Assembly: GCA_022539475.1 (NCBI GenBank)
Contig: VCMS01000061.1
Coordinates: forward strand, 1-44,117
DNA: 44,117 nucleotides
DNA from: Gracilaria domingensis
Lineage: Eukaryota > Rhodophyta > Florideophyceae > Gracilariales > Gracilariaceae
Direction of reading: 5' to 3'
Below, in pieces: positions 17,178 through 44,117 of this stretch. Each line of letters begins with the position of its first letter. Position 1 is the stretch's first letter. A program made the position numbers and the translations under genes. The notes below the pieces were generated by a model, which saw only the letters and a program-made list of their open reading frames with translations, ran no database searches and was not told where the DNA came from.

Positions 17178-20100
17178 ATGGTCTACTACTGTACACATAA
17201 GAAGCGTGGGTGCCCCTTCGTTACTCGCCGAGGAGTCTTATCTCTTCAACAGCATGTCAACCATTGCCCGTTTCGTCTGAAAGCAGCGCTGGAAGACGAC
17301 AATAGCCGGCCCATTCGGAGAAGCAAGCGTCTCAAGCTTTCCGCACCCGCGCCCGCATCTTCCGAAACGGTCACTGCCCCTTGTCGCCTTCCCGAGCCTC
17401 CGGTGTCCGAGGACATCGTCGACCCCACTCCGTGCGCCCCTCCCATTCCGGACACTTCGCATTGTGTTTCTCCTTCCCCGGGTCCCGCGTCATTAGAGCG
17501 AGAACACGGAAGCAGTTCCCGCCCAGTGCCTTCTGAGGAGACCCTCGGTGATTTGCATATGGATTATCTCACGGTTTGTCTGGCTTCAGTAGCTTCCAAC
17601 CTTGGTCATCGTGAGGCTGACGAGCTAATTGGGCTACTTCGGGACCCGCGATTCTCGCAAAAGCGATTCAACGAGATCATAACAAGTTCCAAGCGCTGTA
17701 CAGAACCGAAGAACGCCATTTTCGAACGATACGCCTCAAAGGACGGTTTCAATCGAAGAACTGTCTCGCCAGAAGGATGTAAGTTCAGCGCCACCCTCTA
17801 CACGAGAGACCCCGTTCAGACACTTGTGAAACAGCTCCAGTTGGCTCACAACGAAAACACATTCTTCCACCCTATACCTCAGACCCACTCCACGAAAGTA
17901 TCTCACCCCATGTCCGGCTCTCTCGCAAGAGACGCCACTTCAAAACTTAAGGAAATGGTCATGGGCTCTTTGGATAGTAGAATAGTGTGGTACTCCCAAG
18001 AAATAAGTTACAGTGAATCTTTCGTAGGTCTTCTGCAGGTATACACCGATAAGTCTTCAACAACTCTAAAGCAAACATCGGTTACCGCCTATCCTCTCAC
18101 CTCATATTTCTCAACTTCTCCGACGAGCTTCGCCGTAAGTGTATCCGTGATGACCTCACAGTAGTGGCATACTTCCCTACCACACTGATCGAGGTTTCCG
18201 CATCTGAAGCAGACGCAATGCCATTCGCTTCTAGCAAGTCTCTACGCGAGTCCAGGATGCAAATCCTTCAAGAATCTCTTCGTCAAGTCCTGGAGCCCAT
18301 TCTAAATCTCACGCAGAAAGGTTTTCAGTTCATCGGCGAAGACAAACTAAGTCGAGTGTGCCATCCTCTGCTTGCAAGTTATTGTGCGGATATTCCTGAG
18401 GCTAAGGACATTCTGTCTATTCTTCATGGGACCAAAACAGAAAGCCCGTGTCATAGATGCAAAGCCCCTCGCTCATCTTTATGCAGTCCTATTCCCACCT
18501 CATTCAACGGACGTTCTCAAAAGCACACGAAAAGCATCCGAAAGACATACACAGCTATCTTGCAACATGCACAAAAAGACGAGGCGGAAAGACTTCCACG
18601 TCGTGCGAGGGAGAGGAGATCTCAAGCGGATACTCTGATGCGTTCAAATTCCATATCTCTCATTCCTTCGTTCCTCCAAACTTCCGTAAGCCTTGGAATG
18701 ATCCCAGGATTGTCTCCATACAGTCTGTTCTCATTCGAACCATTACACAACTTGCATCTCGGCATCTCAAAGTTGATAAAAACGGCCACAATCGAGAGAC
18801 TGCAGTCAGACACCCTGTGCATCACAATAGGAACATCTGCATCGCGTTCATTTCGAACGATACGCACCCAACTTCTCAACCATGCAAACGGAATTCTAGC
18901 TGCCATAGAACGCGATTCTCCTGCCAAAGGTTTACATATCGATTTCTCCACGCAGGACAAAGGCAAATCTTTGAATGGTATCTTCACGAAAGACGGTCTC
19001 CGTGGAATGCTGGAGGCCAAAAACTACAAAGCACTTGACATGGTCTTTCCCTTCATAGTAGCATTCTTTAACATATGCTGTGGAGAACAGAACGTTGCCC
19101 CAATCACAACCGTTTTCTCTCAGTACTCGGACTTGCTTTCGACCTTATTCAGATACAATCGTGACCCGTATTGGACTGAAAGCTCTCTCCTGTGTCTTAG
19201 TTCGGAGATTGAAGCCTTCAAGCGTTCCGCAACAAAGACTCTGGCGGATTTTCATCCCTCCAGACTGGGAACTCTGAAGTTTCATCTTCTCGATTATCTC
19301 GTGGACGATATTCGCTGTCTGGGAAGTATCAAGTACTACGACGCAGGCATATACGAACATGCACACCTGCTATTTAAAAGACACTACAAAAAGACGTCCA
19401 GAAGAACAGCAACGGCTGTGGAGGAGACTATTCGCTCCATTGAGCATGGACATGTTAGAAAGCAATGGAATGGCAATACTCCTTACCAGCGTAATCCAGG
19501 TTTACCAGAAACTTCCACACAGCTTCCTCGGTTTGCAATGAGAGGGAGTTCTTTCACTTTACGAGCTCTTCAACAATTTATTTCAAGTATGTCCAGTTCA
19601 AAAACAAGGACTGCTGTTAGAGAGATGTTCTCAAGTACGGACACAAGGTCGATTCTTGACCAAATTTGTGAACAGGCCCTTCCTCCTTTCCTCAGTCTCG
19701 TGAAAGAAACACTGGATGAGCACTCTATTACATACTTCCCAGAAAAGACAAGGATAACTCTGGTGAATTCGGCCCTCGTGAAAGGCGGTTTCGTTCCGAC
19801 TCTTGAACACTTCGATTCGTCTTCTAAGGCACTTAAGCTGGGACGACCCAAATACCCCATCATCCAACGTGTCTTCGCTTCTCCAGCATTTGGTCCCAGT
19901 AGAAAGTTAAAGTTTTCCACTGTATTGGTAAGCGGAGAAGATTCAGAGACTTGGGTTGCCCAGGTAGTCGCTCTGATTCGAATATCTCTCCTTGATTCTG
20001 CACTTACCGCACCAGAGGTGGCATTCGTCCGGTATTTCGAGGTTTTACCCCCCGCAACAAACATCGACCACATATTGAAATGCATATCTTTACGGTGGGC

Positions 20101-20356
20101 TACAAACGATGAAAAGAACCACACTCTTCCGTTCCCTCGTCATTCCAAAGCGGAGACTATCGTAGAGTTAACTCCTTGGTACGGGATGGTTCCGGCTCCT
20201 GCACTACAGGGAACTGTCCATGTTGTTCGATCAAACTACCCTGCTCCACCTTTTTGTCCTCCACTTCAATGGTTTCAACACCGATTCTACATCAATCGAT
20301 TCTATCATGATTCAGATGAAGGACCAACTGAGCACGTTGATCTTGTACAGCCTTAA
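17178..20356 (+). pseudogene. Gene 1A: transposase-like protein with N-terminal zinc finger (one frame break)
   Basis: The ATG at 17178 opens a frame starting MVYYCTHKKRGCPF and ending the zinc-binding region with HVNHC, a Cys/His finger like those at the N-terminus of KDZ/Plavaka-type transposases. The frame breaks near 18100, where one C appears to be missing (CTCACCTC). The next frame continues the same protein to the TAA at 20354-20356, about 1060 residues in all. Copy B confirms the join, because its protein runs straight through this point. Conserved blocks include ADIPEAKDIL, HGTKTESPCHRC (zinc-like CxxC), FSFEPLHNLHLGISKL, which resembles the DPMHNLxLG block of Tnp2-like transposases, LHIDFSTQDKGKSLNG, FHLLDYLVDDIR, GIYEHAHLLFKRHY and the C-terminal RFYINRFY. 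Its likely role is strand transfer for the element. The exact superfamily (Tnp2, KDZ or Plavaka) and the catalytic acids are not assigned. Confidence 0.62.
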
Positions 20357-22749
20357 ACATTAAGGGCTCCATCCTCTACATGTTCACCTTGTGGTGCCTT
20401 TTCTTGTGATCCTGTGTTACTTCCGAAATCGTTCATGTCCATTTCCTTGAACTCCATATCCCCTTCCTCGCATTCACCAACGAAGCAATCGCTAATAGAC
20501 CCCAATCTTCGGCTCACACTGTCAATAAAAAATTGTTCTTTCACAGTGAGGTAAATTCTTCCGTTCGACGGCATTCGATATCCAAATGTAGCCTCTCTCA
20601 TGTCATTACCAAGAACCTTAGTCCAATCTTCCGTTGTCGTTCCAAAATTATGAAACTCGCTGGAATTGGTCCTCAAGACACGTTGCCTAACATCCCCCAG
20701 AACATTCTTTAAACACAGAGGTTGCAGTTCGGCAAACTTCTTTGTAAACAGTTTCTGTCTCTGGCCACCCCTTGACACATCCGTACTTAGAAGGCTCACA
20801 ACCGTCAACACCCAAGCGTCCAAACGTGCGAGCAACAGTATTGTGCCATCTAAAAAGGTGCCCGTATCCTTGTATTCCACATCCTACCCAATTAACTCCT
20901 TCAGCACTTGTACCCCGACACGGTTTCGGAAGAACAAGTCTTGATCTTCCGTCGGCATATCCTCGACATTGTCCGCATTGGAGTACTTTAGACGAACAAA
21001 TGGGGCTTTTCTCCACCATGAAGTGTTCGGTACACCATTTTCGTCAAGACGCAGTATGTTCTCCTGCGCTTCCTTCAACTGCATTGTGAGTTCGTCAGCA
21101 TTCTCTTCTACCAGCTTTGTTCTTCTCCAAATCAGATCGTACCCCAGGAGCAGAAATAGTTTATCCCTCGTATTTCTCTTACGAACGCCCACGACGTCAC
21201 TCATGGTCTGCCGCATTCCCTGCCTAAGGCACATATCTGCACAAAGTTCCAGTATACACCTGTCGGTAAGAGATGCTTTTCTAATACCTTCCCAGCTCAA
21301 CTCCTTCAACTCGCTTTCAACCATTTTCTTCAGCAAAGCATCTGGCCCCCCCTCTACCGACGGTGTGAACATGCCAAAACTGCCCAAGAGCTCCACGGGG
21401 TTTTTAGGAACCATGTATGAACCACCTTCCTCCGGCTCAATAAGCCCTTCCCCACTCTCAGTTGCGTCTTCCACCTTCTCGGCACGGTTACCCCAATTTC
21501 GGGTTAGCGACTCACCTTCGAGCCATAGCTCATTTGTTTCTCTCCTTGCCCACGTCAGCATGTTGTGATACACTGCTCGAGCAACCCCTCGAAACTCGTC
21601 GCACACCTCAATTTTATGCTTCTTTCGACCTGTCTGCCCAGGTTCACCAGCACGTGTACTCCTATCTCCCTCCTGTTTCAGTGCCCCTCTTAGCCCTTCA
21701 ATGACTAGATCCTTCTCTTCAAGCCTCTTTTTCAAAGCCGTACTCTGCTCTTGAGCGACCTTCACTAGAATTCCCCGAACCATCAAGTCCTCTTGTAGCG
21801 TCTTAACCTTTTCTTTCAAGCAATTCAGTTCATTTAAAAGATCACGTCTGTTCATAGAGGTTGATTTCACACCAGTGTAGATATCTTCCGGTATTTCCCT
21901 AGCCTCTTCGGCGACAGGCCCCGGTAATGCCGCAGGATTCGGTGTTATTTCGTTATCGGAACTATCCTCATGTGCCATAGCCTTAGACACGAGAGGCTGC
22001 AGGCGTTCTGTGTCCACCCTTGGCACGGCTCCGAGCTCCAACTCCCGTGTCTGTCCTCCTCCATGGCATGGTATATCAGATGAATTGGGCCTCGTACGAG
22101 CTGCAACGGCCCCCGTTCTGGAAAGAGGGGAAGGTCGAGGAGTAACTCGTCTATCAGTTGTCTCTAGATTTCTTATTGTCTTTCTCCCTTGTCCGGACCC
22201 ATTGCGAGGCATGATACGATTCATAGCGGCCCCAGTTCTAGAAGACAGGGATGGACGTGACGATCTTAATATACTAGGGCTCTCACGACTTCTCGTCATT
22301 GTCCCTTGTTGTCCAGATCCACTGGGCGGCGTAATCCGCGCCCCAGTAGCTCCGGTCTTCGATATCGGCCGGGGACATGAAGGTTTTGGTGTCATACGAA
22401 CCTCTTCAGTTCCAGTTGTCATGCCCTCCTGTCCTGACCCGCTGGGCCGAGTTACCTCATCTTCTTGAGGAGCAGAGACAGATGCACGATTTGCATTATC
22501 GGCAGTTGACGGCACGACATCGTTCGCTGCTCCACGAATTCTTGACGCAATCCCGGAAGACGCTCCGCTGCGAGATGGGCGAGAGAGTCCTGTAGAAGGA
22601 CGCCCACTGACTATCTCCTTCGTCGAGGACGACTTCCGTTTAGGAAGTGCGGTGCTTGTAGCCTGATTCGTATCATCCGATGCTCTTCTCTTCTTCTGTC
22701 CACTCATGTTCGGCTGCGTACTATTTCGCTTTCTCGGCGTTATACCCAT
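20353..22749 (-). pseudogene. Gene 2A: coiled-coil protein of unknown family (one in-frame stop)
   Basis: The start chosen is the ATG at 22749, because the frame upstream of it runs through a G/C homopolymer. The product has a basic Ser/Arg/Pro-rich region with about four repeats built on RPSGSGQ-like segments, then a coiled coil (about residues 290-370, LLNELNCLKEKVKTLQEDL), then a conserved globular part (EFRGVARAVY, RNWGNRAEKVE, FTPSVEGGPDALLKKMVE, GVRKRNTRDKLFLLLGYDL). A TAG at 20881-20883 interrupts it after ELIG. Copy B has Tyr there, and the frame continues as DVEYKDTGTFLDG to 20353. The family is not recognised. The stop codon overlaps that of gene 1A in a shared TTAA, so the two genes are tail to tail. 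A DNA-binding or scaffold partner of the transposase is a guess from position only. Confidence 0.6.
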
Positions 22750-22782
22750 GTTGTGGAGATAAACAGGGTAATGAAACGAAAT

Positions 22783-22809
22783 TGTTGGGGGGGGGAGGGG
22801 GTGGGGGGG
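22783..22809. repeat. G-rich homopolymer tract
   Basis: Runs of 9, 5 and 8 G on the plus strand broken by single bases lie just upstream of gene 2A. A tract like this can form a G-quadruplex and is also error-prone in assembly. Confidence 0.8.
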
Positions 22810-22993
22810 GTGCATGGTTCAGATATTCCGGGAGACTCCGCAGTTCCTGCTTTTTAGGAATTTGAGGTGCCCAATGGGTCGCAAATATCGCCGTTACAGA
22901 TGAAGAGCTCCAGTGTACATGTACAACAACGCGTATTGCAGGCAGCTGCAACACTCAAAAGCATATTTACTTTTTTTTCGGTACTGAACTCAT

Positions 22994-25900
22994 CTATTGC
23001 TCCAATGTCAGAGCCCAGTCCCAGGCGTACTGCTCTCCGTAGTTGAAATACAACTCTTCGCCCCTCTCAATATCTCTTACTGCTCTACAGCGAAGTAGAG
23101 CATAGTTAGAAAGGTCTGACTTAAACTGTATCACGGACTTCGCTTCCACCATCTGCACATTGGCACTTCGAGTCCTGTTTGACCGGGGCCCCGATAAATC
23201 GGGATCCCCGGCATGATATCCGGCGTCGTTAATGTAGCCCCCGATATAAAAAGGCGCCGGGACAATGTAGACTTCGCTCTCCTTTCTATCCTGAGCCTGT
23301 CCTGGTCTGTTCCTCAGGTGCAGAAACTCCGTACCAGTCACAGTGACCATCATAGAAAACAACTTGTACCGCACTGGAGTTGCTCCGAGACAGCCACTTC
23401 CATACGTTAAGTGTCTTTCCTTCCGGTTCGTCAGATCCGTGTATACCAAAGTTCCATAGAAATGACAGATAGTTTCCCCAGCCAATATCTTATGTTCCGT
23501 GAACACCCCCATACCAGCACGGGGATGTCGAATCTTAGAAGATGCTATATGTAAGCGATAGCGATTGGCTTCAACAGTCAACAGCATATGCATATCCATA
23601 AGATTCAGAGCTCCTCGGTACTTCCCCTCCCAAAGATCTACAGTACGCTGTCCACACTTCTCGACAAAGTCCCAGTCCTTCCAGTATCTTCCTAGGAACT
23701 GAGTAATATGTCCAGGCATCACTTGGTACTGGGGGTAACCAAATGGAGCCTCCCATTCAAGCCGACCTCGGTCCCGATGTGGAACCCGTTCATAAGTCGT
23801 TGAAGCCGCATCCACCACCTCCTGTTCAACCAGGATGTCATTCTTCCCCCCGCGAATAACTTCGGCCATAAGAGTCGTTAGATGGTGCTTCGCATGGCTG
23901 AAGCATGGCCTATTCTTCTCGCACCCCAAGAACTTCCTATGCTTTGTCAGCGATAGGCACGCCATACCCGTAGAAAAAGTTCCCGCGAACATGTCCATGA
24001 CAAGATCACCCGGTCTTGTGAACCGACATATCAACTCCTTCATCAACTCCCTCGACTTCTGCTCCGGTCTTATGTACTGCCCACCTGGTACTGAACTACC
24101 TGGCTCATGTACCTTCCATGTCAACCACTCCCCCGCTCTCGGTTTTGGCACCCGGTCAATTACATTCCTGTTAGCCAGGAAAGTAGAAGGAATGAAATTG
24201 TTCTCCTCAAATGGAGTAAGACTGGCTTCCTCCGATGGTCGCAATCCACGCTTCACCCCATGAACGGCGTACTCCATTACGGGCTGTATCCCAAACTTCC
24301 GTGGATTCCCTCCAACATTACTGCGATCCCGGATGAACACCAGTGGATTCGCATCCACTTTAAACGAAGGCATGAGTTCTGGTTTACCTTCGCTTCCAGC
24401 TTCATCTTTCGTACTCGCCGTTTCCGAAAGTATCCTGTGCCACACATGAAACTGTGCCATGGCACAGAATATAATGAAGTGCCCACCTGACCGAAGCGCG
24501 GAACTTATTAAGTCAGCCGTACGGATCATGTCTTCCTCACTGAAGACATCGTGACCACTATTCCGTTTGTTCCTCTTCCTTCGAGTGTTAAAGGGAGGGT
24601 CTGTTAGGACAAGCTGTGCCTCACCCCATAAAATCTCACTCTGATTCACAAACGTTTCGTGTGTGTGCCTCAGGTCCTTCATGTCACAGTTGTACGCTAC
24701 AAAGTGTGACTTTCTCATCCCCTTCCACACCTTGTCCATATTCATTCGAAGGAGACTGGATATCCCCTTCATGGGCGGCTCAATACCAGTCTTTTGGATG
24801 TTGTAACCAGCAACCCGAGATTCATGCTCCGCAAGATTCACCGGCTTCTCGAAGTCGTCGCTATCGGAGCTCACGAGGTTCATATACTCTCGACGAGGTG
24901 GGGGTGGGGCAGACTTGGTCGAAGAAGGTTCGGCATTACCGGAACTTTTAGGGGTTTTCGTCAGTTCAATATCAGGTTTCGCGTGAATGCCGACATGGAA
25001 CTCTGCCGCATGACGCATATCCTGTATCTGTTTCCATAGCAACTCCGAAAACTTCTGAAATCGAGCAGGCAACTCACCGGAGTCAGAGCTAGATACGGTA
25101 TCCATCCGTATCTCCGAAAACTCTGTCCAGTTCCTCATCTGATAAGCCCGTAAGCTATTGAGGCTATCGTGGGTGCATATGGTTTCGAGGTCTGTCAAAA
25201 ACTCCTTAGCCAGTATTCGCAGGTTTGTATCGCATTCATCACTCAAGGTCTCCACCGATCCACTAGTACTGCTCTGTGGCACATCCTTTGTGTTGAATCG
25301 AGTACTCTGGCTCGGCGGGGCATAACCAGACTCCCGTGTCTCTAGCGCTGTATACTTCAACGTCTGCATATTCATGTAAATGTATGGTTTCACCATGTGC
25401 TGAACGTTCGTGTATCCAAGATGAGCTGCAAAACAACTCCATGCCCATACGACCTCACTGATAGCGAAACCCAGTCGATCACAGTTGTCTTTGGAGAACG
25501 ACGTAAGGTATGTACACAGATGGTACATGGTTCACTTTTCGTTTCTTTTTCGGTTGTTTCTTCTTCATCATTCGGATGTTGTCGTTCTCTCCCATTATGT
25601 GGCCGAGGTATGATAAGTATATAACGACCTCAAATGGGTTCACAGCTGTTGGTGGGATGAACACTGTCGTCTTCAGAACCTGCTTTCTCCTGGTCATGAA
25701 ATAACCAACCAGGCATCGCACCGGTAGGAATATACCCATATCCATAGAGAGAAGGAAAAAATCGCGCAGTCTCTGGTCCTCATCCCGTCCTTCTTGTCAA
25801 GAAGCTTCGTTACAAGATATCGTTGTTCCACAGGTTTGTTATTCACAACACTCTTTCGCAGCTGTTGCAGTGTCACGTTCTGCAGATTCTTGGGTTAGTG

Positions 25901-26124: not shown

Positions 26125-26136
26125 GGCTACAGCGCA

Positions 26137-26235
26137 AACAACGGAGGCGAGCCTTTAAATGGCGACTTACGCTGGGCACCCCCGCTTTCGGCAGCTCCTC
26201 CCAGCGCACTGCCAGTCTCGTCCGTGTCCGTGTCC
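26137..26235. promoter_or_regulatory. Upstream element of gene 3A, inverted copy at 27505-27600
   Basis: About 95 bases directly before the gene 3A start reappear in inverted orientation before gene 4A. The block contains CTTTAAATGG, a TATA-like box, about 30 bases upstream of the gene 3A ATG. The matched arms make it likely that the two divergent genes share one promoter type. Confidence 0.5.
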
Positions 26236-26281
26236 GCTCGGAGCGATAGCGTCGCGTGTCGGAGCGATAGCGTCGCGTGTC
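26222..26281. repeat. Short tandem duplication
   Basis: GGAGCGATAGCGTCGCGTGTC occurs twice in direct succession, with a related GTCCGTGTCC duplication just before. It lies at the inner edge of the inverted promoter block of gene 3A. Confidence 0.8.
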
Positions 26282-26394
26282 GGTCACGTCGCGATTCGGA
26301 GCTATTGCAACGGTCCCGTATTGTGCTAAAAGTCGCGGATCAAGTGGGTGTGAAGCGCTAGTTTTCTCTAGTTTGATATATGTGCACGGCGTGT

Positions 26395-27290
26395 GCAGCA
26401 AAATCACTGCCGGAAGTGCCGGGAGGAGTGTTTTGGGAGGTCTCCGGAAGGCCCCGGAATGTGGCAAGAACGTGCCCGCGGGCGGGAGGGTCGGTCGTGT
26501 TAGGGTAGGTACCCTAACACGACCGGATCCCCCCGCCCGCGGGCATAAAATCGCACATTTTTCAAAAAGTCGTCCAAAACGTGCCCGCGGCGGGGGGGGG
26601 GTCGGTCGTGTTAGGGTAGCTACCCTAACACGGCCGACCCCCCCCGCCCGCGGGCACGTTTTGGACGATTTTTTGACACCCTCCGGAGACCTCCCAAAAC
26701 ACTCCTCCCGGCACTTCCTGTACCCACTGCGTCACCTCAGTGCACCATCCCGGAAATTAGGGAGTGTCTGGAGGTGGAGAAGACGGGATGGTCACCTCAG
26801 TGCACCATCCCGGAAATTAGGGAGTGTCTGGAGGGTGAAGATGACGGGATGGTGCACTAAGGTGACGCAGTGGGTACAGGAAGTGCCGGGAGGAGTGTTT
26901 TGAGAGGTCTCCGGAGGGTGCCAGAATGTGGCCAGAACGTGCCAGCGGGCGGGGGGGGTCGGCCGTGTTAGGGTAGGTACCCTAACAAGACCGACCCCCC
27001 CCCGCCCGCGGGCACGTTTTGGGCGATTTTTTGAAAAATGTGCGATTTTATGCCCGCGGGCGGGGGGGTCCGGTCGTGTTAGGGTACCTACCCTAACACG
27101 GCCGACCCCCCGCCCGCGGGCACGTTTTGGACGATTTTTTGAAAAATGTGCGATTTTATGCCCGCGGGCGGGGGGGTTCGGTCGTGTTAGGGTACCTACC
27201 CTAACACGACCGACCCCCCCCGCCCGCGGGCACGTTCTGGCCACATTCCGGTGCCTTCCCGGGACCTCGCAAAACACGCCGCTGCGCAGT
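26395..27290. repeat. Fold-back array with five GC-rich palindromes (divergent region of copy A)
   Basis: The interval folds on itself: the left arm (CGGAAGTGCCGGGAGGAGTG..., 26409-26745) pairs with 26845-27290. Inside lie five palindromes at about 26471-26545, 26579-26660, 26939-27018, 27051-27125 and 27160-27236. Each has the layout CCCGCGGGCGGGG, GGTCGGTCGTGTTAGGGTA, then the reverse complement, with small changes at the centre (GGTACC, AGCT or CCTA). The middle (26748-26845) holds a direct repeat of ATCCCGGAAATTAGGGAG. Open frames across it are products of the repeat and are not genes. Confidence 0.85.
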
Positions 27291-27504
27291 GATTTCGATA
27301 CACCCGGCCGCCGGTACGTTGGCGCCGCTGTCCACGTGTATTGGTGGGAGTAGGCTGTACATGGAAGTGAATGAGTGTACTCTTGACTACTATGCAAAGC
27401 ATTTGAAGAGCATGATTAGAGAACGCGACCATTGCTCGCGTGAGTCATCATTGCGCGAACTCCACGACTCTAAAGCGTACAATCAGTGTGCGAGCGGCCA
27501 CGGA

Positions 27505-27600
27505 CAGCACACGGACGAGACTGGCAGTGCGCTGGGAGGAGCTGCCGAAAGCGGGGGTGCCCAGCGTAAGTCTCCATTTAAAGGCTCGCCTCCGTTGTTG
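27505..27600. promoter_or_regulatory. Upstream element of gene 4A, inverted copy of 26137-26235
   Basis: CCAGCGTAAGTCTCCATTTAAAGG and its surroundings match, inverted, the block in front of gene 3A. It lies 60 to 150 bases upstream of the gene 4A ATG, and an extra TATA-like GATATACACC lies between. Confidence 0.5.
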
Positions 27601-31942: not shown

Positions 31943-32008
31943 AGGGTCATTAGCATGATTCCTCTAGAAACCCAACCACCCAGCCACATCGTAACCATTC
32001 TCCTTATC

Positions 32009-32086: not shown

Positions 32087-32122
32087 CTTGAAGTAAACCA
32101 CCGCCTTCCGCCCCATCCCCAT

Positions 32123-33069: not shown

Positions 33070-36000
33070 ATGCACAACTGTTGTTTCCCCCGCTGCTCAT
33101 TCCATACACAGTCCCTCGCCTCTCTCGCCCAGCATCAGAAGCGATGCAGACACAGGACTGACCCAAACCCGTTTCTCACCCCAACACCTCATCGAGGATC
33201 CCACTTCCCTCCCCGAACCAAGCGCCGCAGACTCAACAACACCGAACCCCCTTCCTTCCCCCCTCTAACCGCCCGTCCGATAACGTAGCACTCGCAGACG
33301 ACGACCCTTATCTCCAGGAACAGCTTGCTCTCTCCCTACGCTCATCCGACGCAGCACAGATACTCAGCCCGCATCACCAACTCGCCTCCCAGTCCCCTTC
33401 CACAGGCTCAGGTAACGCCTTCTCCCCCTCTCCACCCTCACAGAAAGACCACATCCATAACCTCGTCACCTACATATCCTCCATCGCCACAAAACTCGGA
33501 AAGCGTTCTGCTGACGAGCTCATCAACATTCTCAGGCAATCCACCTTTCCCTCTTCCCTCTTCCAGACCTCCATCACTTCCGCTGCCGAATGTCTGAAAC
33601 TGCACTCCAAAATCTTCGAAGAAACAGTCAGCTCCATTGGGTTCACCTCAACCATCATCCATGACAAAAACCATAACTTCTCCGCCACCCTCTACCTCAG
33701 GGACCCCGTTCAGGTTCTCCTACAACAACTTCGTCTCGCATCCCACAGCAACTCCTTCTTTCATCCAGTCAAACAAGCTTCAAGAACAGGAACTACCGCA
33801 ATCGCACACCCTATGGCTTCGGAACTCGGCCGCCATGTCGTCCCGACTATCAAGAGGCATATCATGCATTCTCCGGACCCCGACGTCATCTGGCACGATC
33901 CCAGTATCACCGGCACAGACTCGTTCGTCGGCCTCGTTCAACTATATTCAGACAAGTCTTCCACCTCTTTGAAAAGTTCTTCTGTTACGTCGTATCCTCT
34001 TCACATCACCCTCCTCAATTTCAATGACGCCTTCCGCAGAAAGTGCATCACGCAGAACTACACACTCGTCGGATACATACCCACATCCTTCACCTCCGAC
34101 TCGTCCTCCACTGACACAGATTCCTTGGAAGTCGCTCCCTCAACCCCCAGCGTGACCCGCATTGTGCGCATGCAGCTCGTCCAGGAGTCCCTAGAAACCA
34201 TCCTCAAACCTCTGTATCATATCGGTATGAAGGGTTTTCCCTTCCGCGACGCCAAAGGAGTCCTTCGTCAATGCCATCCAGTCATCTCCAACTACAGCGC
34301 TGACATCCCCGAAGCCAAGGACATTCTCGCAGTACTTCATGGCACAAAGCCAAGCAACCCTGCCACCGGTGTCTCCTCCCTCGTTCAAAACTCAACCTCT
34401 ACCAACCTACTCTCACAGAGCGAACCCTCTCACACACTTTGCAAACCAGAAAAAGACATGATGACCTACTTCTCGAGGCAGATTCTGCTCTCCTCTCCCA
34501 TAGACCACGGGTTGCAAGGAACCTCAAAGAAGAAGCTGCAGAACTTCTCCACTCCACCTCTCTCTCTCCATACAAGTCCTTTCTGGAATCTTACCCTCTT
34601 CTCAACATCTCTTCACTGCTCACTCCTTATTCAATCTTCTCCTTCGAGCCCTTCACAACTTTCACCTTGGCATCTCTAAACTCATCAAACTCGCCACAAT
34701 CGAACGCCTGAAGTCCGATTCTCTTCACACTTCCGTGGGCTTCAATGGATCCTCCAGGTCGTTTCGGTCCATCAGAACATCTATTCTTACTCACGCCAAC
34801 TCCATCCTAGCTGACATCGAACGCTCGTTTCCGGCTCCAGGGCTTCATATTGATTTCTCGACATCTGAAAAGGGTAAGTCTCTCAACGGCTTCTTCACCA
34901 CTGACGGAATCAGAGGCATGCTAGAAGCAAAGGACTATCGCGCCCTGGACATGGTCTTCCCCTTCATCGGTGCATTCTTCGACCGTTGCTGCGGTGAAGT
35001 ATCTCCCGCCCCAATAACCACCATTTTCACCTCTTACGTCGATCTCGTCAATAACGTTCTTCACTACCACACTGCCCCAGAATGGACTGATGATCGCTTA
35101 CGCTCTTTGGAGACTCTCATCAAGAACTTCAAGACTCAAACTGTCTCAGTTTTGGGTCCATACCAGGCTCCAACTTTCGTACTCTCAAATTCCATCTCCT
35201 GGATCACATCATTCCAGACATCCGTCGATACGGAGGCCTCCATTTCGGTGATGCAGGTGTGTACGAGCACGCGCATCTCCTGTTCAAGAACCACTACCGC
35301 CGTACCTCTCGCAGAAGATCAACTGCGCATAAGGAAACAGTGGACTCAATCCAAGAGTCGCAGATTTCTTACACTCCATCTCGGTAAGGAAACACTTCTC
35401 CATGTCTACCAACTCGGCCAGTCGTTTGTCGCAGCGGTGTCCCTCCATGGTTCGTGATGGTAGTTCATTCTCCCTCTTCGACATCATCACGGCCGACAAG
35501 TATCTACGGTCCCATCCAAACGTCCCGTCATCTGCTCTCACAGATTTGTTCTCCAAAACTACATTGCAGTTCATCAACCAAATCTCTCGCGACGCCCTCT
35601 CTTCCTTCCGTACCCTAAGCTTAGAAACTCTTCAACCGTTGGACAACCCCCATGACATCAAAATCACCGTCGTTAACTCCGCTTACATTGTTTCTGGATT
35701 CTGCCCCTCGCTGGATGACTACGATCGTCACTTTCAATGCATTAGACTGCGAGAGCCGGAGGTCTCTTTGTGTGAACGTATTTTTGCAACCACTTCTTTC
35801 GGCCCTTCCAAGTCCCCAAAATTCTCTACCGTCCTGGTTAATGGAACTCCTCCTCCCGGTTGTGACTTCCCGACCGCATGGGTATGCAAAGTCTTTGCCC
35901 TGGTTCGCTTTAGCAGATGTAACCAAAGCAATTCCGATTCTGAATTTGCCTTTGTTCGCTTCTTCGAGGTAACGGAGCCGTTGGATAACATTGACGAATC

Positions 36001-36283
36001 CTTGAACTGCATTTCCCTCCGCTGGGCCACGGATGACGAGGAAGATCACACATTGCAAACCTCCAATTCTCTAAAACGGTCAACAACTGCATCTGTATCC
36101 CCATGGTTCGGTCTCGTCCCATTCTCTTCGATCAAAGGCTCGGTACACATCCTCCGACAAAACTATCCCGCACGCCCCTTTTTCCCTCCATTGCACTGGA
36201 AGTTCCACCGATTCTACATTAACAGATTCTATCGCAATCCCCGAGCTCGTGTACACTACCATCCAATCACCAAACTTTCGTAA
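33070..36283 (+). pseudogene. Gene 1B: transposase-like protein with N-terminal zinc finger (several frame breaks)
   Basis: The ATG at 33070 opens with MHNCCFPRCSFHT and ends the finger with HQKRC, matching the zinc region of gene 1A. The protein then continues with frame changes near 33270, 34358, 34650, 35175 and 35385, all located by alignment to gene 1A. At most of these one C of a short run seems to be missing. Conserved blocks: FSATLYLRDPVQ, SADIPEAKDIL, HGTKPSNPCHRC, FSFEP followed by HNFHLGISKLIK, LHIDFSTSEKGKSLNG, FHLLDHIIPDIR, GVYEHAHLLFKNHYRR and RFYINRFYRN near the end. About 1070 residues once frames are followed. It may be intact if the breaks are consensus errors. The role is as for gene 1A. 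Confidence 0.6.
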
Positions 36284-36299
36284 CGTAAACCATAATGCA

Positions 36300-38851
36300 T
36301 TAGTGACGTTCTATCCAATTCTCCTCATGTAATCCTTCTTGCACAGACCTTTCCCTCATATCCCTCTCTGCAGTTATGTCGTAGAACATACGGTCTCCCC
36401 GACTGCAGCATCCAACATAGCAATCCAGTACAGCTCCGAGCTTCTCAGAGATCTCTCCCATAAACACATCTTCTCGGACAGCAAGGTACATTTTCCTTTT
36501 CGACGGAATCCAGTAAACCACAGTGCCCACCCGGTCATCATTTCCATGCCGCGCATCTTCAGCATTCGATGGGCCATTTCTGAACTCTGTTGGATAACTC
36601 TGCTGCATGCGGACCCTCACGGTCTTCAGTATACTCTCAAGTGCCAGTGGTAGATATTTCCCGAACAAGTTGGAGAACAACACTTGTCTCTTACCACCTC
36701 TCCCTCGTTCAGACTCTGTCGCGCGAACAACGGACGCTATCCAGGCATCAAGACGTGCCAGATGCATAATTGTTCCATCCACTGGATCCCTCTCTTCGGT
36801 ATTCCTCGAACTTGTTTGTAAAACGTCGTAGCCCATGAACTCACGCAGCACCTCCAAGCTCAGGCTGTTCCGAAAAAGCAAGTCACATGGTTCATCTTCG
36901 GTTGCATGATATGGGTTAAAGCCCGAGAAACATATATCTTCTACCTTCTGAGTTCTCCACGACGACAGAATCTCACATCCATTTGCATCTTCGGGTAGGA
37001 GTTTTTCACGTACCTCTCTGGTTTGTATTTCATACTTGTTCTGCTCCATTTCATCATTTTTTATCGGGGTCCTTACAAGCATGTCGTAACCTAGTCCCAT
37101 CAATAACTTCTCCTTCGCATGGCGTTTTCGAACACCTATTGCATCACTTAAAGCCTGTTTCAACCTTCTGCGCAAACAAATGTCGTGCGTTAACTGTTTC
37201 ACACAGTCATCTTCCATTTTCATTCCTCGGATAGATTCCCAACGTGGCTTCATTACCTCCGTCTCCACAATTTGCATCAACAAATGGTCGCCTCCACCAC
37301 GTACGGATGGCGTGTACGCCCTCATTTCCATGGCAAGATCCATTGGGCACCGTGGCACTATCTCCTTCCCATCAACAACCAGCACACTGTCGTCTTTCTC
37401 AGGTCCAACTGTCTCACTTCGGTTGCCCCAGTTCCTTGCCGGTATACTCATCTCGAAGCATAGCTCTCTTGTCTCGTCTTTGGCGTATTGAAGTATGGAG
37501 TCATAGACGGTCTTCGCAACACCAACAAACTCGTCGTTCACGTCAATGTTGTACCGCTTCCTGCTCTTGTTACTGTCACGTTCGTTCCTTTTCCCTCCAC
37601 GTCTGAGAGCCTCTCTCAAAGAGTGTATGAGAACCTCTTGTTCTCTGACCTTAACCTCCAGTTGCTCTATGTTCTTCTGAGCAAGTCGTACGCTCATTTT
37701 CAGACTTTGCTTGTCCTCTATTGTACGATACAGATCTCCCTTCAGTTTCCCGATCTTTTCCAAAAGCTCGTATCGCGGAGTAAGGGATTCATCTTCATCT
37801 TCTTCCATTGCACCATGCAGGGAAAAGCTCCGTGACAAAGCACCACGATCAACATCTTTATCGTTCCATACTTCTCTACGGGCGTTTGCTATGACAGGTT
37901 GCCGATCGTTCCCCACCCGTCTATTCTCATTTCCATGGTTCGTCCTTCTTCTGACCTGATTGAACCTGTTTCTCTGTGACTCACCTGTGACTGGTGTCGG
38001 TTGTATCTCGTTTCGTCTTCGTCTTCCTTGTGTCTGGACCCAATATGAGGGACGGAATCATGCCTGCCTTCGATGGGAGCCATATGCGTTGCATTTCCGG
38101 CGTCCACGTTGTCGTTCGCCTCCACGTTATCCTTGTCCTCGACGTCACTTGGGATATCTACTGCGTCCGTGGACTCCCGCTCCTTTCTTCCACTGCCTTT
38201 CTTGGCACGAGAGACACCCTCATTCATTTTCTCGTTCCTCTTCACTTTTCTCGAATCATAACTGTTACGTTCTGTTCCGGCAGCGCTTCTGGGTATCTCC
38301 CTATCCCCAGGTTCGGCTCTAGGTTCGGCTCTCACGATGGCGCAATCCACGGTTTCCATCTCCGCATTGTCATCCGCAGTTCTCACCTTGTCGAAACAAT
38401 CATCGATACGAGGACCTTCTGTTCCTCCACTGCCTCTTGTCCTCCTTACATTCTGACGTACAGCCGTTCTTCTCTTATTTCCTTTCATCGCTTTGATATC
38501 TACATTTCCATCATCACTGACCCTTGGCTCTTCCATTGCAGCCATGTGGCGTGTAACAGGCCCACGCATTGCACTATCCTTGGCTTGAACGGTTTCACTT
38601 ACTGTGCGTTCCGTAGTGCATGTGGAAGCTCCTGACCTCCTTCTCGGTTTTACTTCCGATACTGTAGATGAAGATTTTGGTTTGCGAAGTCCAGCACGAG
38701 GTGCTCGGCCTCGGCTACCTCTCCCATTAGTAGCACTACTTCGTGAGACGACCGCGCTCCTACGTTTGGCCACCCCAGTATCCCAGCGCTCCGGCGGTAC
38801 CGATGCCTTTCGCGGTTTACCACCTGCATGCTCCGCACGTTGAGGAGCCAT
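36300..38851 (-). pseudogene. Gene 2B: coiled-coil protein of unknown family (one frame break)
   Basis: The ATG at 38851 (MAPQRAEHAGG) is chosen because the open frame upstream of it has no counterpart in copy A. The N-terminal third is basic and Ser/Arg/Glu-rich. The frame changes near 37905 in a G-rich stretch, then runs open to 36300. The coiled coil (IGKLKGDLYRTIEDKQSL to LIHSLREALRR) is followed by blocks shared with gene 2A: DEFVGVAKTVYDSIL, RNWGNRSETV, YTPSVRGGGDHLL, GVRKRHAKEKLLMGLGYD and GTIMHLARLDAWI. The gene ends 16 bases from the stop of gene 1B, tail to tail as in copy A. The function is unknown. Conservation in both clusters argues it is a working part of the element. Confidence 0.6.
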
Positions 38852-39315
38852 CCGAGATCCTTCGGCCTTCGTGCGCGGTAGTATTACGGAACAGATATAG
38901 AAACGTGAACGATACTGAAGGTATATGATTGAGAGTGATATGTGAGGGTCACGTACTCGGTGTGCAGGACTGATATGTGAAGGGGAGGGGAATTTAACCT
39001 CGTACTGCATATATGGAGAAAAGCATTCTGCAGCATTTGTGGCGGATCGGCATTCAATTTTTGGACCTTTCCCGGGTCCATATTCCGGACTTGGTCCGAT
39101 TTTCCCGGATGTTGCGCCCTGCATATACAAGTACGGCACTTTCAACGATCTTTCATACCACTATATGCATCAATATGTTACACAGTACAGCTTGAGTGTA
39201 CATATGAGTAGTATTTCTGCAATCATAGCAGAAGTGTTCAATACAATTTACTTCAACAAAAAGCTTTTCTCACTACATTGAGCCCATACGAAGTCCAAGG
39301 ACATTGTCTGAGAAC
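38852..39315. other. Intergenic interval between genes 2B and 3B
   Basis: 464 bases with no convincing gene. The open frames here overlap each other in several phases without shared motifs. It must hold the promoter of gene 2B on the minus strand. I see no clear repeat. Confidence 0.5.
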
Positions 39316-42300
39316 CTAGGTTAACCTTTCCCAAGGATATGTGGGTCCATAGTCAACGTAAATTTCGTCGTGCTCCTTAATGTCCCTTGAGGCCGTGACT
39401 ACGAGGAGTCTGTAGTTCTCCAAAAGCCCCAAAGTTGTAGCCTGATACTCTGTGGGCTGGCGAATGAATACATTTGGTTTGCGTGCCATGTTAGAATCCA
39501 TTTCTTCCAATTCCTTGTCCTCATCACCTTCACGATATGACGCGTCATTGATATAGCCCGCTACACAGAAAGGAGCAGGAACTATCCAGGCATGACCAGC
39601 GTTGACTTCAGTATCATAATGCGGGAGAGTGTTGTACATTTGCCCCTTCAGCCTCACTTGCATGCAATACTTCCTGAACCGAGATGCAGTGGCCCCCAGC
39701 ATTCCGTCTCCATACGTCAAATGTGTGGTATTGCGTCGGCTTAGATCATGATACACCAAGGTCCCATAAAAGTATCCAATAACCTCCCCTTCGGAAAACG
39801 CCCTACTCGTAAATACTCCATTTCCACTTGCTGCATGTTTGATATTCGACTTCTTCACATAGAGCCATAGCGATGTCGCCTCGACAGAGAGTAAAGTGTG
39901 ACTGTCCAACGTAGTCATCTTCCCTTGTAAGGCAAGTGGCCACTCATGGAACGGTTTCTCTTTGTACGTAGTGATAAGACCAGGTTCATTCCAATAGGTG
40001 GATAGGTACGACATGATATGGAATGGGAAAGATTGGTACGATGGGAATCCCTTGGGTGCATTCCATATAGTCGAAGTCTTTCGTTTCCGTTCAGGAAATT
40101 TGGCATCCACCACATAAGACGCTTGAACTACCTCATTCGTAACCGGTTCTTTCATCTTCAATTCATTGCGCCACACCTTTCTTGCGTAATGCACAATAGC
40201 ATTGTGCTTGGCATGAGAGAAACACTGCTCATCTTGCTCACATCCAATGAAACGCCGAGGCCCCTCAATATCCATACATGCCAGCGCGCACGAGAACGTC
40301 CCGGAGTAGAGATCAACCACAACATCCCCGGGATTCGAGAACCTCGCTATCAGCTCCATCAGTAGTTGCCTCGACTTTTGTTCTGGACGAGCGTTCGCGG
40401 TTCGAATTCTTCTACCACTCTTCACTCTCCATCGGAGACTCTCCCCAGGCGTAAGATTTGGAACCTGGTCAATGATAGAATAGTGCCCAGGATAGCGAGC
40501 TGAAACGTAGTTGAAGTTCTGATAGTTCACCATTACCTTCTGTTCCGCGTACGGGTTTCCATTCCTCACGCCATGCACGGCGTACTCCGTCGCCCCAAAC
40601 AGGCGAGTAGTATTACGCGCAGGGTTCTTCAAGGGGTTCGAACGAGAACGAATGAAGTTCATGGGCGTCGAATCCACTAAGAATGATGCGGTTTTCTTTC
40701 CGCTTGCGTCCTCCGACTTGTGCTCTCGCAAAATCTCTTCCCAGTCTCCAAACTGGTCGATACTGCAGAACAAAACGAAATGTCCTCCTGGTCGAAGCAT
40801 GGATGCCATGATGTCCGCAGTATTGTCCATATCATCGTCAGCCAATTCGTCGTACTCGCTGTCGCGGATGCCATATGGTGGGTCTGTGAGCACGAACTGA
40901 ACGTTGCCTTCCAAAGATGTATCCGATGGGAAGATAGTACCATGAGCCTCCACCAGTTCGTCATATCCGACACAATGCATTGAGAATTGCTTCTCCATGC
41001 TTCCTCGCACCATATCTAGAGCATTTAACGTGCGCGTGTCATCAAAGTCATGAGGGGGGAGAACCCCATCTGGAACGTTATCTTTCGCCCCAACAGAGGC
41101 ACCAGGTGTATCACCTTCTTCATTGTCGCTATCGAGAATGACGATGACATCGGAGTTAACTGAGCTTTTCCCTGCGGCGTTCCTCTTGGAGGAGCTCGGA
41201 ATCTGTATCGAGTCCTCAACCTTAACCGTGACGGTATTACTTCCTCCATCCTGCCTGAAGGAGCGGCCCTAGGGATAAGTCGAGATGGTTGGAGGTTATG
41301 TACAGACATCGCTTGACGAATAGAAGACACGTACTCTTTGGAGAATACATTGAAACGGGGTGGTACTCGTGCGGGGCGGCCAGGTCTGAAGCTTTCCAAC
41401 AAATTCCATCTTGACGTTGGGGACATTTTGTATAGGAAGCCATTCAACACAATCTTGCTGACATCTGCCAAGAATTCCTTTGCCAACTCCCGTAAGTTGG
41501 CGTCGATAGTATCCGGAAGAGTATGAACCCAAGAAACGGTGTCGGTCACATCCAACGTGGGTTTCAGTTCTTCCCCCAACGTATGAAAAGCTGACTCCGG
41601 ACTGTACCCAACAGAGCGGGATTCAATGACATGGAACCCAAGCGACTTCTTTTCTACAAGCAGGTATGGCAGCAACATCTGCTCACCATCACCAAAGCCT
41701 AAGGTTGAGGCAAAGAAATCCCATCCCTTACAAATCGTTTGCACTGCATGTGCCATCCGTCTCCCGTGCGTCTCATTCGAAGCTATGTAGCCGTCGACGA
41801 ACTGCACAGCTCTATGGGTTCCCTTCCCGGTCTTTCCTCTCTTCGCCGCTGGGAGATTTCTCTCCGAAGTTATATGCTTCACGAAAGAGAGATAGAGTAA
41901 CTGCTGAAAACGAGTGGGAGGCCCAATCCTGAACGTAGTTCTCTTCGTCTGCTTACTGCCTGGACCATGTCGTTTGAAAAGGTCATTCCAGAAAGCCCGT
42001 TCTATGAACGAGCTACCGTTGTCGACATCCTTTTCAAGACTCCAGGTAAACAAATCTCTCACGCGCCGATCAGAATTCTCGTCGTCTAGATCAGTGATAC
42101 GCGTATATTTGTAGACCCTGCTCAGAAAACGCACGTCCAGACAGATCTTCGTGACTTCTTTTGCGGAGTAGTTTTGGAAAGGACCCTTGACCGCAGTGGT
42201 GATGAACTCTCGTGCACATGCCAGGTGTTCACGGTTTGATACAGCGTATTCCACAATTTCCGTGTACCCAACTTCACGCGGATTACCAGTACCACTTCTT

Positions 42301-42482
42301 GAAGCGGCATACGCATCTCGCAACTCAATGAACAACCCCCAACATTTCAAGAAACGCGTTGCCATGCTGGCTGAATCGAACGACGCGCTAGAGGATGCGC
42401 TAGAGGATACCGTGCCGTGGTTCTCATCGGCCAGCACACTCTGCTTAACAGTCCGAGGAGCGTCATTTCCGGTGGACGCCAT
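39316..42482 (-). pseudogene. Gene 3B: DNA amino-methyltransferase fused to SET domain (one frame break in linker)
   Basis: The ATG at 42482 (MASTGNDAPR) precedes an N-terminal domain of about 330 residues shared with copy A. The frame changes near 41265. The linker then contains DVIVILDSDNEEGD (about 41150), a good SUMO-interacting motif. The methyltransferase follows within 41013-39316: VLTDPPYGI (residues 42-50 of that part), EQKSRQLLMELI, then PGDVVVDLYSGTF (228-240) and FIGCEQDEQCFSHAKH (255-270). This is beta order, and DPPY fits adenine-N6 or cytosine-N4 methylation. The SET domain covers the last 200 residues: GNGVFTSRAFSEGE, IGYFYGTLVYHD, AGYINDASY and DEIYVDYGPTYPW. It likely acts in the nucleus on element DNA and on chromatin. 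Both enzymatic halves are in one open frame, so the fusion is not an artefact of the frame break. Confidence 0.82.
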
Positions 42483-42768
42483 GTAAGAACTGAGAATCAG
42501 AAAGGACGCGAAGTAAACGAGTATTGTGAAACGGTAGAAGTTTCGGAGATGTTTAAATGGGTGGGAAGCGACGGAAACGTCGGGAAGCGTCGGAAACAAT
42601 GGTGGAGAGCGCGGTTGCGACGGATTACCGAGAACTGAGCGGGTAATGAAATAGAGAGACGAGAGTGGGATCTAAACACATCAAACCGGTGGGGCACGTC
42701 AGTATGTGCAGTGCATTATATGTCTAGTATGTAAAACCAACGTAGAAAACACTGGGTTCGTACATCTT

Positions 42769-43397
42769 TGAACATCGCCCGAGCGCGGTGTGGGAACCGC
42801 GGTTCGCCGAGTTCATAGCCGAGATCATAGCTATGATCTCGGCTATGAACTCGGCGAACCGCGGTTCCGGCACGGCGCATCTGACGAAACGCCACGTGTA
42901 TACCGCCGAAAGACCCCCCCTGAGGACCCCCTGGAGACCACTTCTACTACACAATGCGCACCAAAGCACCTGTTCTCACCCACACCACCACTACCTGGTG
43001 GTGTTGCTGGCGTTTATATGGGCAGTGAATAAGTGACGCCCCGTCGATGGCCGCCGCCCTCCGTGCGCTGCTCCGCTCCCACCGCATCGTCTCTCCTCCT
43101 CAAGCCCTTCCCCTCCGTCTTCCACGCTTGCTACACAATGTGTCCGAAGTGTCATCCGCGTCTCCATCGCTCTCCCGTTTATTCGACGTCACTGCCCACA
43201 TAAACGCCAGCAAGGGGTCCTCCAGGGGGGTCATCAGGGGGGGTCCTTTCGGCGGTATACACGTGGCGTTTCGTCAGATGCGCCGTGCCGGAACCGCGGT
43301 CGCGAGTTCATAGCCGAGATCATAGCTATGATCTCGGCTATGAACTCGGCGAACCGCGGTTCCCACACGGCGCTCGGGCGATGTTCAAAGATGATGA
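42769..43397. repeat. Fold-back structure with two long palindromes (divergent region of copy B)
   Basis: The outer arms CATCTTTGAACATCGCCCGAGCGC (left) and the reverse complement ending at 43397 pair. Inside them lie palindromes at 42793-42868 (38-bp arms, perfect) and 43290-43363 (near-perfect, same sequence). Further in, CGCATCTGACGAAACGCCACGTG...CCGAAAG pairs with 43247-43285, and TGCTGGCGTTTATATGGGCAGTGA pairs with about 43188-43212. The left arm has about 65 extra bases (42935-43005) that the right lacks. Open frames across it are repeat products. Confidence 0.88.
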
Positions 43398-43642
43398 AAG
43401 GCGGGGACAGTGGTCAACCAGGACGGAATCAGACATTGATCCAACCATTTATAACCATCAGGAACTGTACCCACACTGCTCACGTGGGCATTGCAGCCGT
43501 TTTGAACGTGAGTGGTTGCGTCCATTGTGCTCACGCGAGAAAGGGCGGAGATTCGAACACGAGCGGTTGCAACTTCACGGGAGCAAACGTACGATTTGAA
43601 GAACACCAGGACTCGTGTATATCACACACACTGGCACATATA

Positions 43643-44117
43643 ATGGATATGAGGGGACTGGGAAAGGGTCAAATGAGACGCTCTCGAAAGGTGAGAAAGC
43701 CTCGACGAACCATGGCACCAAACTTCGGAGCGGGACCAGAACTGCTGAACCGAACGCAGCGACGGGGAACGCATCCACAGCTATGAAGTCGAAGCCCGCA
43801 CCAGGCGAAGAAGTGACCTTGTTGTTGGGAGGGGCAGGAGGGAACAAAGCAGCGATTGGGAAAGCTGTTCTCGTTGAAGTGGACGCTGGTGGAGGGAAGA
43901 CAACGTTCAGAAGGGAAATGCATGGACATGCTCTGGCAGGGAAAACCAGGGGAAGATGTAGTTGGTATATGGCGAGCGAAATAATCTCATGAGCTTGACA
44001 CTCCCCTCCAAATATTCCCTATCTCTTTAGTGTACGATGAAGATTCTGTTTCCGAGAACATATGAAGACATGAACAGGCCGGTTTTACGCCTGGGACCTG
44101 AACTTAATGTCATAAGG
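43643..44117 (+). pseudogene. Gene 4B: start of basic protein related to gene 4A (incomplete)
   Basis: The ATG at 43643, just after CACATATAATGG, starts a basic protein (MRRSRKVRKPRR). The frame seems to change near 43780, and the continuation (IGKAVLVEVDAGGG, FRREMHGHALAGK, to about 43990) matches the small globular part of gene 4A, where VGEALLHGIG and RRELHGKQL occupy the same places. The frame closes at 43992 in this phase and the window ends at 44117, so the rest is unseen. The position, divergent from gene 3B across a palindromic interval, is the same as in copy A. The similarity is short, and confidence rests mostly on synteny. Confidence 0.4.

Follow-up and report, generated by a model that had tools for sequence, protein, structure and literature searches.

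Two nested families of large Plavaka/CACTA-like DNA transposons in a red alga, with a predicted methyltransferase-SET gene in a conserved four-gene core

Two nested four-gene elements in the window

The DNA studied here, called the window throughout, is the first 44117 bases of contig C61 (contigs are denoted C12, C29 and so on) in the 77.9-megabase assembly of the red alga Gracilaria domingensis. It contains two sets of four genes (Table 1), namely a predicted transposase (gene 1), a coiled-coil protein (gene 2), a predicted amino-methyltransferase joined to a SET domain (gene 3), and a fourth gene with a probable oxygenase-like region (gene 4). The sets belong to two related families, A and B, of DNA transposons of the Plavaka/CACTA kind, about 20-23 kilobases (kb) in length. 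The original prediction, that one four-gene system occurs here twice in the same order and orientation with strongly diverged sequence, was confirmed by BLASTP: all four A-B pairs were matched, order and orientation being equal, at identities of 41-59% for gene 1, 35-40% for gene 2 (E 8e-56), 38% over 608 columns for gene 3 (E 8e-124; 28-31% in the amino-terminal parts), and 27-46% for gene 4, in which the C12 copy stood for family B; the control of 20 shuffled sets gave no match at E<=1e-3 (0/20). The intergenic DNA had also been said not to align, and indeed only three BLASTN matches, of 397, 76 and 40 bases, were found between A and B at the DNA level.

The extent and mutual position of the two sets nonetheless differ from what was first proposed. 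Family A occupies 14955-30886 and family B starts at 30887, with gene 4B running beyond the window, and since A is cut exactly where B begins, the sets are not neighbouring copies but nested ones, gene 4A being interrupted by insertion of the family B element. Genes 1A, 1B, 2B and 3B are frame-split in the window copies; elsewhere, 1A is one frame of 1097-1101 amino acids in 45 of the 59 best-scored matches, and single frames are listed for 1B (1110 amino acids) and 3B (1118 amino acids) in C12, and for 2B (953 amino acids) in C299, C127 and C403. The C12 frames of gene 4B hold the regions homologous to gene 4A. Both elements also contain a foldback-like stretch between genes 3 and 4; the one in family B sits at the same place in C12, and thus has travelled with the family.

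Table 1. Features of the two nested elements in the window
Feature	Position	Strand	Supporting observation
Left terminus of family A element, CGTCTGTCTTTTCCAGATGCTA	14955..14976	+	Corresponding terminus with other flanks in C246, C105, C29, C262, C469
Subterminal tandem repeats of family A, unit ~73 bp (base pairs)	15893..16261	.	Multiple matches also in C246 and C591 copies
Gene 1A, predicted Plavaka-type transposase, two frames here	17178..20356	+	PF18759 E 8.7e-13; at least 58 further copies
Gene 2A, coiled-coil protein, no family assigned	20353..22815	-	No Pfam match; homologous to 2B
Gene 3A, predicted beta-class amino-methyltransferase + SET	22994..25796 (upper limit approximate)	-	PF01555 E 4.9e-15, PF00856 E 2.7e-7
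Inverted-repeat stretch between 3A and 4A, probably an insert	26137..27599	.	91-nucleotide arms 99% complementary
Gene 4A, only the 5' part, interrupted by element B	27660..30886	+	Run of N at 28624-28788
TG, left copy of inferred 2-bp target duplication of element B	30885..30886	.	C60 empty site; right junction in C12, C233
Family B element, left part, extends past window	30887..44117	+	Left terminus in further contigs; right terminus C12:85355
Gene 1B, predicted Plavaka-type transposase, split frames	33070..36283	+	PF18759 E 7.7e-19
Gene 2B, coiled-coil protein, split frames	36300..39145	-	Homologous to gene 2A
Gene 3B, predicted amino-methyltransferase + SET; amino-terminal part in different frame	39316..42482	-	PF01555 E 7.1e-15, PF00856 E 1.1e-6
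Inverted-repeat insert between 3B and 4B, ends CATCTTTGAAC...	42763..43393	.	91-nucleotide arms 99% complementary; also in C12
Gene 4B, start only	43643..44117	+	98% DNA match to C12 copy

Element ends and target duplications

Both families were found to end in CGTCTGT...ACAGACG. The left end of family A at 14955 reads CGTCTGTCT, and its right end, placed where C29 and C296 cease to match one another, is the inverted form of CGTCTGTGTTCTGCAAAG; the two ends lie 22772 bp apart in C29. The right end was found in C29 and C296, and not within 6 kb in C60. Altered end bases were seen at the left in C203, in which the first two bases of the family A terminus are changed, and at the left in C293. The flanks of the family A terminus in C105 and C29 both resemble the neighbouring retroelement (described below) at 8.1-8.3 kb. 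The left end of family B at 30887 reads CGTCTGTGTTTCCGG and recurs with other flanks in C12, a second copy in C61, C22, C277, C233 and C202; at its right end in C12 stands the inverted form, beyond which gene 4 of family A resumes, and the ends of this copy are 19977 bp apart.

The uninterrupted insertion site of B was located in C60, as CAGGTGGGTTG. Together with CAGGTG before the element in C61 and TGGGTTG after it in C12 and C233, this site gives a TG duplication for B, pieced together from several contigs. For family A, C469 contains a shortened copy inside gene 3 of a B copy, with ends, both of them read, 10046 bp apart; its left flank stops at window base 41052 and its right flank starts at 41053, on the reverse strand, so that comparison with the empty site in the window yields a 2-bp TC duplication, in one contig. 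Right ends of family A were also seen in or beside gene 3B in C166 and C266. Candidates for paired ends were C168, C203, C328, C262 and C29 for A, and C12, C22, C277, C233, C293, C42, C8, C202 and C469 for B or nested A; only six of these contigs (C469, C29, C203, C12, C233 and C293) showed the left and right ends of what is presumably a single copy. Terminal inverted repeats and target duplications had been suggested as a check on a transposon origin, and short inverted ends were indeed found in both families, with a 2-bp duplication in two nested insertions; long inverted ends were sought within the window and not found, the ends being short and A split by B. Near-perfect palindromes lie near the left parts of both elements, at 16672-16766, 31828-31947 and 32030-32078 (the last noted by eye), and are possible binding or silencing signals.

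Recurrence and linkage across the genome

The search for the four-gene set covered this one genome, and the best candidates were scored (59 of 1625 first-look candidates for 1A, 54 of 931 for 3A and 69 of 785 for 2A), which makes all copy counts lower bounds. Matched stretches numbered at least 59 for gene 1A, 69 for 2A, 56 for 3A, 74 for 4A, 130 for 1B, 81 for 2B and 75 for 3B, about 19 of the 130 being gene 1A copies (44-47%). For counting linkage, second pieces of places already listed were left out (9/75 for 3B, 8/81 for 2B, 2/56 for 3A), as were 30/130 of 1B, comprising these gene 1A matches, second pieces and short fragments; some matches have an identical counterpart in another contig, which may be a duplicate made in assembly.

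Gene 3B was found within 15 kb of 1B at 49 of the 66 places listed, always in one order and orientation, and within 15 kb of 2B at 41/66, again in a single arrangement, while two 3B places lacking a 1B match reach a contig end (C166, C149). Gene 2B lay within 15 kb of 1B at 69 of 73 places listed, order and orientation being uniform but for one of the 69. Among the family A matches listed, 3A adjoined 2A in 20/54 (spacing 182-414 bp), 2A adjoined 1A in 16/69 (533-535 bp), and 3A was linked to 4A in 21/54, 19 of them in the expected orientation; direct 3A-1A pairs numbered 2/54. Cross-family linkage of 3B to 2A was seen at 0/66 places listed. A subfamily, B', with gene 3 61-68% identical to that of B, retains the same gene order, for example in C109, C37 and C489. 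Independent occurrence of genes 1 and 3, or synteny confined to this locus, would have spoken against a functional unit; instead, the two genes of family B lie together at most places listed and the set recurs across the genome. The proposal of a large DNA transposon family carrying its own modifying enzyme is thus supported by direct observation of the genes, their recurrent linkage in dozens of near-identical copies, the termini, and the 2-bp duplication with its empty site.

Two further loci resemble the window. In the window gene 4A, the match to most listed copies ends at about residue 575, and C171 has the same junction; its gene 4A is identical to that of the window over 587 residues and is followed 4425 bases on by a 1B match (4395 in the window), so that C171 may represent an allele, a duplicate or an amplified nest. 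Beyond the window, after a 2031-base run of N, C61:46149-50500 (in L032, C61:44118-50500) is an inverted 98.8% copy of 39544-35196, with its left end at C61:54766 and a different flank.

Predicted products of genes 1 and 2

The Plavaka profile PF18759 was matched by genes 1A and 1B at 48.6 and 68.5 bits, respectively, against a cut-off of 26.3, and gene 1 is predicted to encode a Plavaka-type (CACTA-like) transposase. The Pfam CACTA transposase gave no match in the scan of the window genes. In Plavaka transposases, C(2)C and H(3-4)H motifs stand between the catalytic residues; the motif CHRC is present in frames of both gene 1 copies. The target duplication, at 2 bp, is within the 2 or 3 bp of Plavaka elements, whereas the termini fit neither the PlavakaA (TGT..ACA) nor the PlavakaB (CATCA..TGATG) pattern; hence, the elements are Plavaka-like and belong to neither group. 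Membership in KDZ was considered and rejected, the duplication being 2 bp and not the 8 bp of the Zisupton type, and the transposase that of Plavaka. Gene 2 matched no Pfam family above cut-off.

Gene 3 encodes a predicted methyltransferase joined to a SET domain

Pfam detected N6_N4_Mtase and SET in both gene 3 copies, and the DPP[YF] motif IV precedes an FxGT-type motif I, which is the order expected of a beta-class N6-adenine methyltransferase. Gene 3 is therefore described here, as judged from its motifs, as a putative beta-class amino-methyltransferase with a divergent SET domain. Its relatives in the PDB include DpnA, CcrM and MboIIA, enzymes that form N6-methyladenine (6mA), the resemblance extending over 60-70 residues, and a search of 5.8 billion proteins retrieved seven relatives of 26-42% identity. 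LTDPP was invariant in 10/10 aligned gene 3 sequences, seven of which are these database proteins. A SET domain was also recorded in outside relatives, as a precomputed domain in P0001 and P0002 and above the SET cut-off, by scan, in P0007. From the DPP[YF] motif, adenine is a likelier target than cytosine; however, the N6_N4 profile spans both adenine and cytosine specificities, and a rotifer enzyme with SPPY produces N4-methylcytosine (4mC), according to the part of that report consulted (PMC8885841), so that the family alone cannot settle the base.

Substitution rates were compared between gene 3 of B and B'. The nonsynonymous rate (dN) was 0.20-0.21, and its ratio to the synonymous rate (dN/dS) was 0.07-0.08 overall and 0.12-0.15 in the SET part; in the methyltransferase part dS was saturated and dN was lowest, at 0.16. 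Near-identical gene 3 copies gave a dN/dS of ~0.7. These values, from few pairs, indicate that gene 3 is under purifying selection and has been kept functional during evolution of the element.

Scanned with gene 3, prokaryotic contigs yielded four distant loci only and viral contigs five, all five matching just the methyltransferase part. Modification enzymes of such kind are frequent in viruses, and the large size and many genes of the unit could likewise suggest that it is virus-like or derived from a giant virus, and not a transposon. The distance of the viral matches argues otherwise, as do a transposase that belongs to an established group of transposons, the 2-bp duplication at short inverted ends, and the absence of polymerase, capsid or packaging genes among the frames scanned, which were part of all frames; a viral origin is thus scarcely credible.

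Gene 4 contains a probable oxygenase-like region

Gene 4 had been described as basic, which was incomplete, as further regions were found in it, namely a probable PhyH-like oxygenase and a possible ParB-like region. The copy in C60 is a 1075-amino acid open frame, and two database proteins (P0008 and P0009) share 95% and 89% identity with family A gene 4; their database names are mediator subunit 15-like and cell-wall-anchored protein. P0010, from another source, is a gene 4 relative of 29% identity. A further protein search with the gene 4 alignment gave no new relative and did not return P0010. The first part of the C60 copy partially matched ParB-like phrogs (E 4.7e-4, 0.0092, 0.043 and 0.31), which lends weak support to a ParB-like region there.

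The last part of the C60 copy contains the motifs HTD, LWVSAGSH and THAGA, which have equivalents in family B and P0010. When gene 4 was compared by hhalign with a profile of 27 PhyH sequences, the score was 35.1 (P 1.3e-4), far above the controls, in which the best of 40 shuffled PhyH reached 21.5, the best of 40 shuffled gene 4 reached 18.6, the reversed profile 12.9, and the unrelated gene 3 and ParB-region alignments 16.5 and 15.4, respectively. The confident part of the alignment covers LWVxxGSH and the distal H. Gene 4 thus probably contains a PhyH-like 2-oxoglutarate (2OG) oxygenase region. A TET/JBP identity was rejected, no Tet_JBP profile match being seen in the oxygenase pieces or P0010 up to E 10.

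Shared core and downstream cargo

In the family A copy in C296, two HAD-type hydrolase frames (one over and one slightly under the Pfam cut-off), a ribulose-phosphate 3-epimerase (E 1.6e-61) and two matchless frames lie beyond gene 4. Most of this cargo is shared by C29 and its first 4.1 kb by C60. The epimerase gene stands at L048:4731-5516, and C29 lacks ~460 bases of the region. Beyond gene 4B in C12, no DNA match to the A cargo was seen; as the downstream stretches differ, the four-gene part is the shared core. Capture of genes by these elements evidently happens, and genes 2-4 could themselves be passengers from the host, like the downstream sugar-phosphate genes, with no role for the element. 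This is very improbable, however, since the four genes stand in one order in A and B, as do genes 1-3 in B', at ~35-69% protein identity, and gene 3 shows purifying selection; the downstream part, by contrast, differs.

Just left of element A, inverted copies of a retroelement extend over 2895-14964, with arms 81-88% complementary; they carry reverse transcriptase, RNase H and integrase, with a chromodomain under cut-off. An exact 300-nucleotide direct repeat in this region (1-300 = 10750-11049) is possibly a long terminal repeat.

Proposed function

The element probably marks, and perhaps unmarks, its own DNA and chromatin. We consider it likely that these are families of Plavaka/CACTA-kind transposons with a conserved module in which the methyltransferase-SET protein and gene 4 set the modification of the element DNA, avoiding silencing and controlling access of the transposase. 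In this model, gene 1 would bind and cut the element ends, and its partner, gene 2, would bind DNA at the subterminal repeats; gene 3 would methylate an exocyclic amino group on element DNA, most likely of adenine to give 6mA, while its SET domain would modify a histone; and gene 4 would oxidise or remove the base mark. Both enzymes together would fix the modification state, such that host silencing is avoided and transposase access controlled, and the marks might keep the element active or time its movement.

Several observations weigh against this model. For the ends, five of the six same-contig pairs (C29, C203, C12, C233 and C293) have no matching duplication, leaving C469 as the only one that does, and C12 and C233 have their right flank in common and the left flank different, which makes mis-joined or recombined copies likely. 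For gene 3, no SET match was obtained in four of the seven outside relatives (P0003 and P0006 by direct scan, P0004 and P0005 via the precomputed list). Most SET domains have N-H-S and D-Y catalytic motifs; gene 3 has N-D in place of N-H, and DYG or NYG is present. Among 27 B copies there was no CpG decay (29/5856 CpG against 142/19584 other C/G sites), and hence no support for CpG methylation as the opposed mark. For gene 4, ParB was matched neither by P0010 nor, in Pfam, by gene 4 itself. The oxygenase region had no Pfam match up to E 10, no NCBIfam match and chance matches only in the PDB, as did the A3 profile in its own PDB search; the hhalign probability for PhyH was only 54%, and the HxD motif aligned with PhyH only in a low-confidence, forced extension. 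Moreover, 555 bases that contain all three oxygenase motifs are missing from the annotated P0008 and P0009; the omitted stretch is in frame and bordered by GT..AG. The omission could stem from faulty gene prediction or reflect genuine splicing, which may be regulated; if genuine, at least one gene 4 product would be devoid of the oxygenase core. With weak profile support and this omission, the oxygenase is probable rather than established.

It could accordingly be argued from the meagre profile matches and the two annotated proteins that gene 4 does not act as an oxygenase at all, the HxD...H pattern being due to chance or the region being spliced out. We regard this as unlikely, since the PhyH score stands well clear of 80 shuffled controls and of unrelated profiles, the alignment with PhyH takes in LWVxxGSH and the distal H, family B and even the distant P0010 retain all three motifs, and in C60 the stretch forms part of the open frame. 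A more elaborate scheme, which we entertain tentatively, is a write-and-erase (or write-and-hypermodify) transposon lineage, in which the methyltransferase-SET protein and a ParB-guided 2OG oxygenase would give the element DNA a modified base of its own that its transposase or chromatin recognises, and splicing of gene 4 might act as a switch. The enzymes may also gate transposition instead of evading silencing: gene 3 would mark the ends, the transposase would need hemimethylated or unmethylated DNA, and gene 4 would reset the state. Dam methylation, which marks the ends of Tn10, is a precedent for such gating, and the methyltransferase beside the transposase at 49/66 B places listed, the constraint on gene 3, and the subterminal repeats near the ends, which could serve as targets, are all in agreement; a SET domain, however, is unnecessary for such a role, and gating as the sole function is doubtful.

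Under the favoured model of modification that shields the element and controls its transposase, one protein could write on both DNA and histones, and a second could oxidise DNA. Because the copies are many, little diverged and have open frames, these ideas can be tested, and the elements are a natural setting for the question of whether transposons in a eukaryote are shielded, or their movement controlled, by 6mA or another modified base.

Comparison with known systems

CACTA/EnSpm elements have subterminal repeats and a second protein, as the seaweed elements do. The transposase groups are also akin, but CACTA/EnSpm elements have CAC..GTG termini and a 3-bp duplication, in contrast to the 2 bp and the different termini found here (PMC12730594, in the passages available). 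Among titles, abstract openings and passages, mostly of non-subscription papers, no description of this gene set was found, and the words red alga or rhodophy were absent, by word search of the available text, from a survey of eukaryotic 6mA (PMC12695648).

The closest parallels are in fungi, where, in the accessible passages of Kojima 2025 (PMC12730594), Plavaka, KDZ and other transposons carry TET/JBP oxygenases. The parallel that had been drawn with fungal KDZ-TET/JBP elements is close in logic; it does not hold for the transposase, which is Plavaka here, or for gene 4, which has no Tet_JBP match. Fungal TET/JBP Plavaka elements likewise combine a Plavaka transposase and a 2OG-oxygenase gene in one element, and their duplications of 2 bp (PlavakaA) and 2 or 3 bp (PlavakaB) resemble those of the seaweed elements; however, their termini are TGT..ACA or CATCA..TGATG and not CGTCTGT..ACAGACG, their oxygenase is TET/JBP whereas gene 4 is PhyH-like, if an oxygenase at all, and their hosts are fungi rather than a red alga, with no methyltransferase-SET gene seen in those passages (PMC12730594). 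The seaweed elements add a red alga, and a new set of predicted enzymes, to the known cases of transposon-borne epigenetic enzymes.

The giant Plavaka repeats of Amoebidium are also large, multigene and Plavaka-flanked, and some of their genes have relatives in red algae; they differ in their many tyrosine recombinases, and no methyltransferase-SET gene is mentioned in the portion of the report consulted (PMC11244446). DNA transposons that likewise encode a SET methyltransferase are the Phytophthora HarbingerS and MuDR elements, which belong to other superfamilies and for which a fusion of SET to a DNA methyltransferase is not stated in the available passages (PMC12730594). Lastly, in N4CMT of bdelloid rotifers, too, a beta-class N6_N4 methyltransferase that came from bacteria is linked to a chromatin domain; as described in the part of the report consulted, N4CMT lies outside transposons, has a chromodomain and SPPY, and produces 4mC, whereas the seaweed gene 3 is borne by a transposon and has SET and DPP[YF] (PMC8885841).

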